DNA of 64,000 nucleotides, from the NCBI RefSeq assembly GCF_019669905.1, contig NZ_AP019777.1, positions 1,550,001-1,614,000 on the forward strand. The letters are read 5' to 3'. The notes under the pieces were generated by a model, which saw nothing but the letters and a program-made list of their open reading frames with translations, ran no database searches and was not told the DNA's origin. Shown one piece after another: positions 30,144 through 35,041 of this stretch; positions within the stretch are counted from its first letter, which is position 1, and each line of letters opens with the position of its first letter. Position numbers and translations under genes: made by a program. The stretch comes from Methylomonas koyamae. GTDB lineage: Bacteria > Pseudomonadota > Gammaproteobacteria > Methylococcales > Methylomonadaceae.

Positions 30144-32081
30144 ATGGGCAAAATGATCGGTATCGATTTAGGAACCACCAACTCCTGCGTCGCCGTACTG
30201 GAAAACGGCACCGCGCGGGTCATCGAAAACAGCGAGGGCGCCCGTACCACGCCCTCCATCATCGCGTTTACCAACGATAACGAAGTATTGGTCGGCCAAT
30301 CCGCCAAGCGCCAAGCCGTAACCAATCCGGAAAACACCTTGTTTGCGATCAAACGTTTGATCGGCCGTCGTTTCAAAGAAGACGCGGTGCAAAAAGACAT
30401 CAAAATGGTGCCTTACAAAATCATCGAAGCCAACAACGGCGACGCTTGGGTGGAATGCCACGGTAAGAAAATGGCGCCGCCGGAAGTGTCTTCCCGCGTC
30501 CTGATGAAATTGAAAAAAGACGCCGAAGCGTTCCTGGGCGAGGAAGTCACCGAAGCGGTCATCACCGTACCGGCCTATTTCAACGATTCGCAACGTCAAG
30601 CCACCAAAGATGCCGGCCGCATCGCCGGTCTGGACGTCAAACGCATCATCAACGAGCCGACCGCGGCGGCGTTGGCGTTCGGTATGGACAAACCGAAAGG
30701 CGACACCACCATCGCGGTTTATGACCTGGGTGGCGGTACCTTCGATATTTCCATCATCGAAATCGCCGAAATCGAAGGCGAGCACCAGTTCGAAGTTTTG
30801 GCCACCAACGGCGATACCTTCTTGGGCGGTGAAGACTTCGACTTGCGTATCATCGATTTCCTGGCCGGCGAGTTCAAAAAAGACACCGGCATCGATTTGC
30901 ACAACGATCCTTTGGCTTTGCAACGTCTGAAAGAATCGGCCGAGAAAGCCAAAATCGAATTGTCGTCAGCCGAGCAAACCGACATCAATCTGCCGTACAT
31001 CACTGCCGACGCATCGGGCCCGAAACACTTGAACGTCAAATTGACTCGCGCCAAATTGGAGTCTTTGGTCGACGATTTGATCGAACGTACCAAAGGTCCT
31101 TGCCTGCAAGCGATCAAAGACGCCGGTATTTCGGCGGCAAAAATCAACGACGTGATCCTGGTCGGTGGTCAAACCCGGATGCCGAAAGTGCAAGCGTTCG
31201 TTAAAGAATTGTTCGGCAAAGAGCCGCGCAAAGACGTCAACCCCGACGAAGCGGTGGCCTTGGGTGCGGCGATTCAAGCCGGCGTATTGGGCGGCGACGT
31301 TAAAGACGTGTTGTTGCTGGACGTTACCCCGTTGTCTTTGGGTATCGAAACTCTGGGCGGCGTGATGACCAAATTGATCGAGAAAAACACCACGATCCCG
31401 ACCAACGCTTCGCAAGTGTTCTCGACCGCCGAAGATCATCAAACCGCGGTGACTGTGCATGTATTGCAAGGCGAGCGGGAAATGGCGTCCGGAAACAAAT
31501 CGCTGGGCCGTTTCGACCTGCAGGACATTCCGCCGGCACCGCGCGGCATTCCGCAAATCGAAGTCTCGTTCGACATCGACGCCAACGGTATCCTGAACGT
31601 ATCGGCCAAAGACAAAGCCACCGGCAAGAAGCAGTCCATCGTGATTAAGGCTTCCAGCGGTTTGTCCGACGACGAAGTCGAACGCATGATTAAGGACGCC
31701 GAAGCCCATGCCGACGAAGACCGCAAGCTGAAAGAGCTGGTCTCCACCCGCAACGCGGCCGAAGGCATGATCCACGCTACCGAAAAATCGCTGAAAGAAT
31801 TGGGAGACCAGGTCAGCAGCGACGAAAAATCGGCGATCGAAGCGGCCATTAAAGACCTGCATGCTGTGCTGAAAAGCGACGACAAAGATGCCATCGAAGC
31901 CAAAACCAACGCCCTGACCGAACTATCGGGTAAACTGGCCGAACGCGTCTACGCCCAAAAAGGCGGCGCCGAAGCGGTGGCTACCGGCAGCCACGAACAC
32001 GCGGCCGGCGGCCAACAAGCCGAGCCAGACCACAATGTGGTCGATGCCGAGTTCGAGGAAGTTAAGGACGATAAGAAGTAA
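30144..32081 (+). CDS. dnaK: Chaperone protein DnaK (Hsp70)
   Basis: A 645-residue Hsp70. N-terminal ATPase with [14 protein letters not shown] and [12 protein letters not shown], linker [13 protein letters not shown] near 390, substrate-binding domain and helical lid, ending in [10 protein letters not shown] like other DnaK C-termini. TCTGGAGAA is the ribosome binding site. It is followed by a terminator-like hairpin and then by a truncated copy of the dnaJ start. Confidence 0.98.
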
Positions 32082-32177
32082 AGTTCGTTCGATTTCTCTC
32101 GCAGCCTGAGAGAGGGTAGGACGGGCGCGCACGCTGTTAAAGTCGCTTCCGTCTTCTTTCAATTCAATATCTTAATT

Positions 32178-32203
32178 AACCGCCGGTTTCCGCCGGCGGT
32201 TTT
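32178..32203 (+). terminator. Hairpin after dnaK (partial terminator)
   Basis: Stem AACCGCCGG/CCGGCGGTT with a 6-base loop, followed by TTCC. It lies about 100 bases after the dnaK stop and just before the truncated dnaJ copy. Its T run is short, so it may reduce rather than end transcription toward dnaJ. Confidence 0.55.
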
Positions 32204-32210
32204 CCTCGTT

Positions 32211-32273
32211 ATGGCAAAAGAAGATTTTTATAAACTGCTGGAAGTGGATCGCAACGCCAGCGAAGCTATGTAG
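32211..32273 (+). pseudogene. dnaJ: Truncated duplicate of the dnaJ 5' end
   Basis: ATG at 32211 opens a 20-codon frame ending TAG at 32271-32273. The residues [19 protein letters not shown] equal the DnaJ N-terminus except that the intact gene has an extra Ala after Met. It is the left copy of a 53-bp perfect repeat and marks the original start of dnaJ before the insertion. Not functional as a J-domain. Confidence 0.9.
32214..32266 (+). repeat. 53-bp direct repeat, left copy
   Basis: Identical over 53 bases to 33098-33150. It runs from GCAAAAGAAG to CCAGCGAAGC and encodes the first part of the DnaJ J-domain. The two copies bracket the toxin-antitoxin insert. Confidence 0.95.
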
Positions 32274-32294
32274 ATGCGCACCGCATACCTTTTT
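32270..32294 (+). repeat. GTAG-headed short hairpin, REP-like
   Basis: GTAG at 32270-32273 followed by ATGCG-CAC-CGCAT and then ACC and a T-rich run. The GTAG head plus palindrome is the layout of REP elements mobilised by RAYT transposases, but the stem is only 5 bp. It could instead be a small terminator. It lies exactly at the left insertion boundary. Confidence 0.35.
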
Positions 32295-32311
32295 GTTTTT
32301 GCGAGGTAGAT

Positions 32312-32497
32312 ATGCAAGCTGTTGTTACGGAAGTCAAAGAATTACTGAATAGATTGTCCGAAGAAAGCGGCTATTAAGATATTCAATATCACCTTTATGG
32401 CATGGCTAAAATTCGGCAAGGAATCACTAGGGCGGAAATCGAAGGGATTGTTCCGCACGAGGAAGTCGAAAAACAATTTGATTGCGTGTTTAGTTGA
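32312..32497 (+). pseudogene. Antitoxin-like gene with an in-frame stop
   Basis: ATG 32312 follows GAGGTAGAT and encodes MQAVVTEVKELLNRLSEESGY, then TAA at 32375-32377, then in the same frame DIQYHLYGMAKIRQGITRAE and on to EEVEKQFD before TGA at 32497. The joined 61-residue product looks like a small antitoxin-type protein found upstream of RelE/ParE toxins (pattern GY-x-DIQYH-Y...KI..G...AE). TAA stands where Glu is expected, a single GAA-to-TAA change. Regarded as decayed. Confidence 0.6.
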
Positions 32498-32533
32498 ATA
32501 CAAACTTCCAAGCTATATTTTGAGGTAAGAATA

Positions 32534-32758
32534 ATGGATAGCACAGTAATCGAACGCGAAGCTCTTCATCTCCCCGCAGCGGAACGCGCCAAACTTGCCC
32601 ACAGTTTATTATTAAGCTTAGAAAATCTCTCTGATGCTGAATTGCATCAAGTTTGGCTGGATGAGGCTCAGCGACGTGCCGATGAAATAGATCAAGGTTC
32701 GGTCGAACTGATTTCCTCCGAAGAAGTTAGTGCCAAAGCGCGTTTATTGCTGAGATGA
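32534..32758 (+). CDS. Type II antitoxin, addiction-module component family
   Basis: A 74-residue protein of the PF09720 type: EREALHLPAAERAKLAHSLL at the N-terminus and EAQRRADEIDQGSVELIS followed by EEVSAKAR at the C-terminus are the family pattern. TGAGGTAAG precedes ATG 32534. Stop codon overlaps the toxin start as ATGA, so the pair is translationally coupled. It should neutralise the following ParE-like toxin and repress their promoter. Confidence 0.88.
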   Translation: MDSTVIEREALHLPAAERAKLAHSLLLSLENLSDAELHQVWLDEAQRRADEIDQGSVELISSEEVSAKARLLLR

Positions 32759-33048
32759 GTTATCGGTTTCATCCGGGGGCCGAGCATGAGCATTTGGAGA
32801 TTGTTGGATTCTACGAGTCGATACAAACGGGGTTAGGCGCTGCCTACTTAGCGGAATTTGAAAATTTAATGACTCGCGTTGTTGGGATGCCTAAAATTTA
32901 TCGGATAAATAGAGGGTCTAATATTCGGGTGGTTTCCCTATTTAAGTTTCCTTATCGAATAATCTTTAGAGAGAATTCTGACGGGTTACAGGTTTTAGCG
33001 GTTTCGCATAAAAAAAGAAGGCCTGATTATTGGTTAGGTCGGTTATAA
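32755..33048 (+). CDS. ParE/RelE-family toxin
   Basis: A 97-residue protein of the RelE/ParE fold. YRFHPGAEHEHLEIVGFYES at the N-terminus, then FPYRIIFRENSDGLQVLAVSH and RRPDYW at the C-terminus match ParE family toxins (PF05016), which poison gyrase or, for RelE types, cleave mRNA. Target not determined from sequence. Ends 43 bases before dnaJ, so transcripts of the pair may run into dnaJ. Confidence 0.88.
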   Translation: MSYRFHPGAEHEHLEIVGFYESIQTGLGAAYLAEFENLMTRVVGMPKIYRINRGSNIRVVSLFKFPYRIIFRENSDGLQVLAVSHKKRRPDYWLGRL

Positions 33049-33091
33049 CTAAATTTACCCATACTTAAAAAATAATATTTAAGAAAAATAA

Positions 33092-34231
33092 ATGGCCGCA
33101 AAAGAAGATTTTTATAAACTGCTGGAAGTGGATCGCAACGCCAGCGAAGCCGAAATTAAAAAAAGCTATCGCAAGATGGCGATGAAATACCATCCGGATA
33201 GAAATAAGGATAATCCGGAAGAGGCGGAGAAAAAATTCAAGCTGATCAAGGAAGCTTACGAGGTTTTGTCGGATTCCAAAAAGCGTGCGGCTTACGACCA
33301 GTTCGGCCATGCCGGCGTCGACCCGTCGATGGGCGGCGGCCGTGGCGGTTTTACCGGGGCGGAGAGCTTCAGCGATATTTTCGGTGATGTGTTCGGCGAT
33401 ATTTTCGGCGGCGGCCGCCAGCAGCGCAGCAGCGTACAGCGCGGCGCCGACTTGCGTTATAACCTGGAATTGACCTTGGAAGAAGCGGTTGGCGGTACCG
33501 AAGCCACCGTCAAAGTGCCGGTATTGGTCGCGTGCGGCGAATGTAACGGTAGCGGCGCGAAAAAAGGCAGCAGTCCGGTCACCTGCACCACTTGCCACGG
33601 CCACGGCCAAGTGCGGATGCAGCAAGGCTTTTTTTCGGTACAACAAACTTGTCCGACCTGCCGCGGTACCGGCAAGCAGATCAAAGACCCGTGCCCGAAA
33701 TGCTACGGCCAAGGCCGAGTGCAGGAAACCAAAACTCTCAACGTCAAAGTTCCGGCCGGCGTGGATACCGGCGACCGGATCCGTTTGGCAGGCGAGGGCG
33801 AAGCCGGATTGAACGGCGGTCCGTCAGGCGATCTGTACGTTCAGGTGCAGGTTAAAGAGCATCCGATCTTCACCCGCGACGGCGCCAATCTGTATTGCGA
33901 AGTGCCGATCAGTTTCCCGATGGCCTGTTTAGGTGGCGATTTGGAAGTGCCGACCCTGGACGGCAAGGTCATGCTGAAAATTCCGCCGGAAACCCAAACC
34001 GGGCGCATGTTCCGCTTGCGCGGCAAGGGCGTCAAGCCGGTCCGGGGTGGCGCGGTCGGCGATTTGCTGTGCAAGGTGCAACTGGAAACCCCGGTGCATT
34101 TGACCAAGGACCAGAAAGCCTTGATCGAGAAACTGGGCGAATCTTTGTCCGGCGGCGGCAAACACCACAGTCCGCAAGAACACAGCTGGATGGACGGTGT
34201 GAAAAATTTCTTCGACAAGTTGACAGGATAA
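33092..34231 (+). CDS. dnaJ: Chaperone protein DnaJ (Hsp40)
   Basis: A 379-residue cochaperone that activates DnaK ATP hydrolysis. J-domain with HPD in [10 protein letters not shown]; a Gly/Phe-rich linker; four zinc-finger repeats [24 protein letters not shown] and CPKCYGQG; and two C-terminal substrate domains. The ATG context is AAGAAAAATAA, a weak ribosome binding site contributed by the insert. The first codons are ATG GCC GCA against ATG GCA in the upstream truncated copy. dapB starts 3 bases later. Confidence 0.97.
33098..33150 (+). repeat. 53-bp direct repeat, right copy
   Basis: Identical to 32214-32266; this copy is part of the intact dnaJ. The identity ends after CGAAGC, where the left copy continues TATGTAG and this one continues CGAAATT. 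Confidence 0.95.

Positions 34232-35041
<810 letters not shown>

Follow-up and report, generated by a model that had tools for sequence, protein, structure and literature searches.

In the 64,000-nucleotide stretch of the Methylomonas koyamae genome analysed here (the window; contig NZ_AP019777.1, positions 1,550,001 to 1,614,000), the gap between dnaK and dnaJ holds a second, truncated start of dnaJ followed by a predicted toxin-antitoxin pair. The two genes belong to a heat-shock operon, hrcA-grpE-dnaK-dnaJ-dapB, that is common to the relatives, and the genes and repeats of the window described below lie on the forward strand. On the left of the gap dnaK (30144..32081) encodes a protein of 645 residues. 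It is followed by a native leader of the kind seen at empty sites (32082..32210), with a hairpin at 32180-32199 that folds at -15.7 kcal/mol (z -2.4; 6 of 200 shuffled sequences fold equally well). The ATG at 32211 that comes next opens a dead stub of dnaJ with only 20 codons (32211..32273, beginning MAKEDF), which reads into the inserted DNA from codon 19 and ends at a TAG at 32271-32273. The complete dnaJ lies further on (33092..34231); its ATG at 33092 opens a frame of 379 residues that begins MAAKEDF and has the J, central and C-terminal domains present.

The stub and the complete gene share a direct repeat of 53 bp, identical at 53 of 53 positions, with the left copy at 32214..32266, the right copy at 33098..33150 and a spacing of 884. 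The sequence leading into the repeat is unlike in the two, the left reading ATG-GCA-AAA and the right ATG-GCC-GCA-AAA. When the 64-kb window was scanned for direct repeats of at least 30 nt only one other family was found, of 31 nt at 77%. The 831 bp between the copies (32267..33097) have a GC content of about 0.35-0.49, as against 0.52-0.63 in the flanks, and end with the ATG-GCC that starts dnaJ. From the left they contain a degenerate hairpin of the GTAG class of repetitive extragenic palindromes (REPs; 32270..32288), a small open reading frame (ORF) broken by an in-frame stop at 32375-32377 (32312..32497), and two intact ORFs that overlap by 4 bp. The first of these (32534..32758, 74 residues) matches the antitoxin family PF09720, Unstab_antitox, with an E of 4.5e-13 and the second (32755..33048, 97 residues) the ParE-like toxin family PF05016 with an E of 3.7e-6, above the cut-off. 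From the domains and the order, antitoxin first, the two are predicted to form a type II pair. In NCBIfam the antitoxin fell below the cut-off of TIGR02574 and the toxin had no match, and no solved structure was found by sequence for either at E up to 0.01. No transposase or integrase is apparent among the ORFs of at least 30 residues in the insert, of which three forward ones were scanned for domains (the antitoxin, the toxin and the 31-residue tail of the broken ORF). Nor did the stretch 31000-35000 match any RNA family (E up to 1), or the insert give a sign of a dedicated promoter, having one promoter-like site where 2.3 were expected from shuffles. An inverted match of 15 nt between 32162-32176 and 32373-32387 is probably due to chance. 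A first-pass annotation of this locus had described the perfect repeat, some 0.8 kb of AT-rich DNA with an antitoxin and ParE-like toxin between its copies, the dead stub on the left, the completed dnaJ on the right and the lack of a transposase, and on all of these it was correct.

The gap was compared across the genus in 37 genomes, including that of the window, by searching with the dnaJ start. The region was fetched for 34 of the 36 relatives; G027 and G029, where the search found no dnaJ start, were left out, so that 35 genomes including the window's could be read. Two forms of the gap are present. Form A, in 13 genomes, has a gap of 93-130 bp and a dnaJ that starts ATG-GCA (MAK). Form B, in 21 genomes, has a dnaJ that starts ATG-GCC (MAAK or MAEK) and a gap of 150-2140 bp in the 20 where it is measurable, that of G026 ending at a contig edge. 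In every relative (34 of 34) the form of the gap is linked to the type of dnaJ start. Among the 35 genomes only the window is a hybrid, with an A gap and stub followed by a B gap and B start. Judged by leaders outside the genus, form A looks ancestral, because a leader of the form-A type, which contains GGCGGTT and has the start placed behind TTACGTT or a close variant, is found in six genomes of four other genera (G142, G078, G053, G116, G123 and G042).

The two parts of the hybrid can be assigned by alignment. The left part, the gap and stub at 32082-32266, is 94-95% identical over 184-186 bp to the form-A genomes G002, G006 and G007; nine other form-A genomes match part of the A gap, G034 matches only around the dnaJ start, and none of the form-B gaps matches 32082-32210. 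Over the repeat the stub has one mismatch to G002 and one to G006 and G007. From 32264 onward the sequence aligns instead to form-B gaps as a single match that runs into dnaJ, the best being to G003 (889 bp at 83.8%), with similar single matches through the dnaJ start in the form-B genomes G018, G001, G025 and G036. On the dnaK and dnaJ trees the genes of the window group with G002, G006 and G007, so that its dnaJ has a form-B start on the body of a gene from a form-A clade. These three nearest relatives thus carry the empty site that the first-pass annotation had suggested looking for, and the arrangement that it thought would speak against an insertion, the same locus with diverged repeats in relatives, occurs in none of the 34 that could be read. 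No old stub was detected in the other form-B gaps at a blastn E of up to 0.01, the stub matching only the true dnaJ starts there. Similarly, among the best 20 or fewer candidates from each of the 36 other genus genomes there was no second match to the first dnaJ codons, the second matches all starting no earlier than query base 57.

At E up to 1e-6 DNA of the insert was found in 12 of the 37 genus genomes, that of the window included, with 13 matches that all lie directly upstream of dnaJ; 12 have dnaK on the other side and one is at a contig edge with dnaJ. Among the best 14 or fewer candidates per genome none lay away from the dnaK-dnaJ gap. Because all 13 matches adjoin dnaJ, the module is a resident of this gap in the genomes searched. 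Close relatives of the toxin in a wider genome collection agree with this: of six named loci all six fall between dnaK and dnaJ, five of them in genus genomes already counted, the records being Methylomonas LW13, SURF-2 and WSC-7, M. fluvii EbB, the metagenome-assembled genome (MAG) BC.006 and one Methylococcaceae MAG. The last, ZH-Oct18-38 (L210), has the same pair between dnaK and dnaJ in another genus, with a toxin that is 66% identical. The dnaJ of G210 starts MATK. We also considered whether the whole toxin family might be restricted to the gap and rejected this, as six distant relatives in other genera (56-64% identity) have neither dnaK nor dnaJ in the flanks that were fetched (up to 1.5 kb per side).

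Both proteins of the pair look conserved at the sequence level. Against five relatives the ratio of non-synonymous to synonymous divergence (dN/dS) is 0.04-0.07 for the antitoxin, where dS is 0.66-2.5, high and partly saturated, and 0.08-0.13 for the toxin, where dS is 1.2-1.9, near saturation. The small ORF that is broken in the window has intact relatives in G003, G025, G026 and G031. In G026 the relative is followed by a ParE-like gene (E 1.3e-17) and in G031 by a shortened ORF that appears similar by eye. The small protein has no match in Pfam or NCBIfam and might be called antitoxin-like, a label taken from position alone. Its relatives stand before a ParE-like gene in L014 (G026) and L043 (G031) and lack one in L034 (G025) and L040 (G003), a pattern like that of orphan antitoxins from module displacement. 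Many of the form-B gaps carry this pair or other small genes of toxin-antitoxin type. Besides the pair, their cargo includes DUF4160, a DUF2442-like protein that falls just short of its cut-off, a REP-associated tyrosine transposase (RayT), and another ParE, which adjoins a relative of the small protein.

The variability is confined to one gap of the operon. The hrcA-grpE gap is 37-53 bp and the grpE-dnaK gap 68-99 bp in the 31 of 35 genomes where they were measured, and the dnaJ-dapB gap 2-4 bp in 34 of 35, while in the same genomes the dnaK-dnaJ gap ranges from 93 to 2140 bp, placing variable cargo between conserved core genes. The form of the gap was mapped on trees of the flanking genes, with the window labelled A: a dnaK tree of 31 of the 35 genomes, four incomplete genes being omitted, and a dnaJ tree of 34 of the 35, from which the first 25 codons were removed. 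The label changes 8 times on the dnaK tree and 9 times on the dnaJ tree, and at least 5 changes on each are forced by well-supported branches. Labels shuffled at random need 10.3 and 11.0 changes on average. Because the observed values are near these, gap form and flanking genes are almost uncoupled, which a swapping of gaps between species would lead one to expect. Ten pairs of genomes were compared at the start of dnaJ. In one clade its first 100 nt showed 0-2 differences between G019 (form A) and each of G025, G003, G024, G020 (form B) and G010 (form A), where the next 100 nt showed 6-16. The pairs G013-G031 and G000-G002 are contrary, with 11 differences already within the first 100 nt. 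The near-identical first 100 or so nt in G003, G010, G019, G020, G024 and G025 could be either a short recombining tract or a locally conserved one.

The two ends of the form-B DNA are unlike. On the right the B leader ends with ATG-GCC and dnaJ of the recipient type follows directly, so that the homologous junction is at or just after the left end of the right repeat copy. On the left (32266..32267) the junction reads AGC|TAT-GTAG, the stub sequence ...GCGAAGC|TATGTAG... being interrupted within the 19th codon of the former dnaJ start; the GTAG of the degenerate REP follows after 3 nt. The AGC at this border is also found in G003 and G001. Judged by eye, the same REP marks the left border of the shared module in G001, G003, G025, G036 and G026 and, in altered form, in G018; to the left of it G001, G003 and G026 carry unlike DNA and the flanks of G018, G025 and G036 resemble one another. 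In a tally of this REP family that covers 18 of 30 fetched loci, read on one strand, conservation begins at the GTAG, which is kept in 13-15 of the 18, the preceding base being kept in 6. The 17-nt core of the REP, with up to 2 mismatches, has 43 strand matches (39 places), against 3 for a reversed control.

The locus is a hybrid of two alleles of the gap. It seems likely to us that these alleles circulate among Methylomonas species, that form-B DNA was spliced into a form-A gap, and that the result is a recombination scar rather than a new mobile element. In the proposed course of events a chromosome with a short form-A gap would have received form-B DNA from another lineage. At one end homology in the opening codons of dnaJ would have made the join, fusing the form-B leader and ATG-GCC to the recipient's own dnaJ; at the other end the join would have been illegitimate, falling in codon 19 of the old start immediately ahead of the REP at the module edge. 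With the illegitimate join placed 53 bp further downstream than the homologous join, these 53 bp would be present twice, and the old start would have become the 20-codon stub. Since ATG-GCC is the ordinary start in the 21 form-B genomes, the rebuilt dnaJ start would have come with the B allele. The toxin-antitoxin pair would be passenger DNA of form B, probably expressed by read-through on the dnaK mRNA. Neither an integrase nor a circle is needed to explain the locus. The donor DNA may have entered free, by transformation or other transfer, and the right join would presumably be the work of RecA, in a process of homology-facilitated illegitimate recombination (HFIR) or a near equivalent, though a trimmed donor circle integrated through one crossover, or a template switch at a replication fork, would give the same junctions. 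The sequence itself cannot tell which form was the recipient; an A recipient and B donor seem preferable because the three nearest relatives are form A.

The event would appear to be recent. The stub has 0 changes in its 53 repeated positions, while the dS of dnaJ to G006 is 0.48. Taking the stub lineage alone, with half of this dS and an assumed clock, a neutral stub as old as the split from G006 would stay unchanged with a probability of about 3e-6, because of which the splice is probably more recent than that split.

The two unlike junctions are those of HFIR, which is reported from S. pneumoniae, A. baylyi and P. stutzeri and at low frequency from E. coli (PMC3240628). As that paper describes the process, one homologous and one illegitimate junction surround foreign DNA that has no recombinase of its own, as here. 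In its E. coli test a partial duplication of the target was the commonest outcome (56 of 60 clones) and was ascribed to a single crossover of trimmed circles (PMC3240628). At our locus one junction lies in homology between donor and recipient, where exact homology to the sampled module-bearing donors is only 11-17 nt, and the other, which in HFIR products often shares a few nucleotides, is without extended homology, only AGC being shared with G003 and G001; the true donor is unsampled. The locus differs from the HFIR experiments in being a natural scar, in its apparently very short homologous join and in the position of the junction beside a REP.

Several points weigh against the splice of two alleles. 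The best donor match is only 84%, and the 11-17 identical nt before the first difference from module-bearing B relatives are short for RecA, so that a closer unsampled donor or a later conversion must be assumed at the homologous join. At the left join the shared AGC is only 3 nt and could be chance. HFIR was 100 to 1e6 times rarer than homologous recombination in the laboratory, according to PMC3240628. ComEC and DprA have matches in the genome of the window and are a weak sign of competence, because the same two families also match 10 and 11, respectively, of 14 control genomes, among which is E. coli. The pair is not whole in all relatives, as the toxin of G001 has an internal stop and that of G022 is short. 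Finally, the trees describe the flanking genes dnaK and dnaJ, which may themselves recombine, and not the species, and shuffled labels reach as few changes as observed in 44 of 500 (dnaK) and 67 of 500 (dnaJ) trials; the form carries little phylogenetic signal and the number of swaps depends on the tree.

The same sequence would also result from an exchange in the reverse direction. A form-B ancestor would have received form-A DNA, comprising the end of dnaK, the A gap and the first 18 dnaJ codons, that was joined illegitimately inside the B gap and removed its left part. The homologous join would then lie in the long homology of dnaK, an origin in a near relative would explain the identity of the stub, and switches of form are frequent on the flank trees. 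This course needs two events, however, with the nearest relatives G002, G006 and G007 all form A (3 of 3), and the earlier acquisition of B would still require a crossover at the very start of dnaJ. We regard it as unlikely.

GTAG hairpins are found in 14 of the 20 measurable form-B gaps (G001, G003, G008, G009, G011, G015, G017, G018, G020, G024, G025, G033, G035 and G036), with 33 in 20,361 bp as against 0.4 in shuffles, and in 8 of the 20 one of them begins 4-9 nt past the dnaK stop. The 13 form-A gaps hold 4 in 1,578 bp, three of them being the A hairpin read on the other strand, because of which GTAG-hairpin density alone fails to set B apart. A RayT gene (NF047646, E 3.8e-61) lies between dnaK and dnaJ at L052:6389-6916 (G009). 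At G000:C1:1319882-1320735 a Y1-type transposase match (1320243-1320554) is found amid copies of the REP family that borders the insert, which is likely to be a REP/RayT unit. One could picture the dnaK-dnaJ gap as a dedicated, integrase-free exchange site, where REPs cut by RayT-type enzymes set the module ends, the dnaJ start is the anchor, the leader and first codons are swapped at each arrival, and toxin-antitoxin genes travel as alleles within the heat-shock operon; the window would have caught such an exchange midway, the displaced start of dnaJ being not yet lost. We hold this larger picture to be quite unlikely.

The narrower proposal that RayT cut the donor at the REP of the module edge, making the end that was joined to dnaJ, is very unlikely. 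In its favour, the junction is a C|T step with the GTAG 3 nt further on, and the TnpA-REP enzymes studied in PMC8266576 are described as cutting near GTAG hairpins, on the 5' or the 3' side, at CT and in one case at CA as well. The hairpins of the 14 form-B gaps, the RayT gene in one gap and nine Y1 transposase matches in the genome of the window, one of them between REPs of the junction's family, also speak for it. Against this, only one junction is concerned, the recipient side (AGC|CGA) has no CT step, and G003 and G001 share 3 more nt leftward of the supposed cut. The junction REP itself (32270-32288) is degenerate, was missed by the scan for GTAG hairpins and folds no better than shuffles (z -0.9), and the form-A control gaps are no lower in hairpin density than form B.

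The first-pass annotation had seen here a small toxin-antitoxin unit that inserts in dnaJ while restoring it. Integrative elements that rebuild the gene they enter are known for tRNA genes and for the 5' end of a few protein genes, and the anatomy of the locus fits, with a direct repeat of a gene start and the gene completed on one side by sequence borne on the insert. That an insertion on this lineage duplicated and rebuilt the start of dnaJ stands. The unit as an element that targets dnaJ is not supported, as its DNA is found only upstream of dnaJ (13 of 13 matches in the genus) and ATG-GCC is the start that all form-B genomes use. No integrase or transposase is seen among the ORFs of the insert, and because its DNA stays within this gap in the 37 genomes searched, with no other sites for its ends, the reading that the module has ends of its own was rejected. 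The right end is a normal form-B leader, upstream of which the sequence varies by species, so that what restores dnaJ is the start that this gene has in the other allele, and among the best 20 or fewer candidates from each of the 36 other genus genomes no second match to the first dnaJ codons is seen. We give a mobile element that targets and restores the dnaJ start almost no credence. Least credible is an assembly artefact, a danger that the first-pass annotation had also named, by which the A and B alleles of two strains would have been fused: the single junction at 32266/32267 is unlike every relative read, yet the contig is 4.86 Mb, completeness is 99.97 and contamination 0.2, the junction has no long overlap for an assembler to misuse, and 884 bp would be short for long reads, a judgement from assembly statistics.

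The splice of two gap alleles has counterparts in other systems. A dnaK-dnaJ gap with two alleles and toxin-antitoxin genes, set in a rigid heat-shock operon, fits the kind of integrase-free exchange hotspot described in PMC5635113, where variable cargo lies between conserved core genes, no integrase is seen and the flanking core genes undergo homologous recombination; the first two hold here as well, and the flanks may show signs of recombination. It differs in the place of the gap, within an operon, and in the border between the alleles, which falls in the opening codons of the gene downstream. For the effector-immunity modules of Vibrio cholerae sequential displacement is described, and an HFIR-like process is proposed for the arrays of displaced immunity genes (PMC5361080). 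As in that account, arrival is at a fixed locus and remnants of old genes and orphan protective genes are left, but at our locus it is a chaperone gene whose start is left behind, the cargo is a type II-like toxin-antitoxin pair and the anchor is dnaJ. Titles and abstract openings in the literature gave nothing relevant on a toxin-antitoxin unit or insertion between dnaK and dnaJ, on dnaJ as an attachment site, on transformation in Methylomonas or on allelic toxin-antitoxin exchange. If the splice is correct, the locus would give a base-resolution view of how small toxin-antitoxin genes can pass from species to species with no mobile element involved, by being alleles of a gap within a core operon, and a one-sided homologous join would leave a scar that can be dated. 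It would also suggest that an exchanged gap can take in the first codons of a core chaperone gene, and cautions that a direct repeat resembling a target site need not imply a transposable or integrative element.

Beyond the genus, 201 genomes of the family were searched for second dnaJ starts, 185 of which gave a match, with the best four candidates taken per genome, so that stubs could be missed. Five genomes other than that of the window had two matches and were searched again. In four the second match begins at query base 14 (G086, 70% over 95 nt, on another contig), 49, 58 or 106. In the fifth G160:C281:3-55 matches bases 1-53 of the dnaJ start and is cut by the contig end; it could reflect either a split contig or, in another genus, a second start of dnaJ. 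Nor are dnaK and dnaJ neighbours throughout the family, since 7 of 40 fetched genomes (G059, G084, G164, G127, G057, G110 and G044) have no dnaK within 3.5 kb upstream of dnaJ; in these the operon is either split or widely opened.

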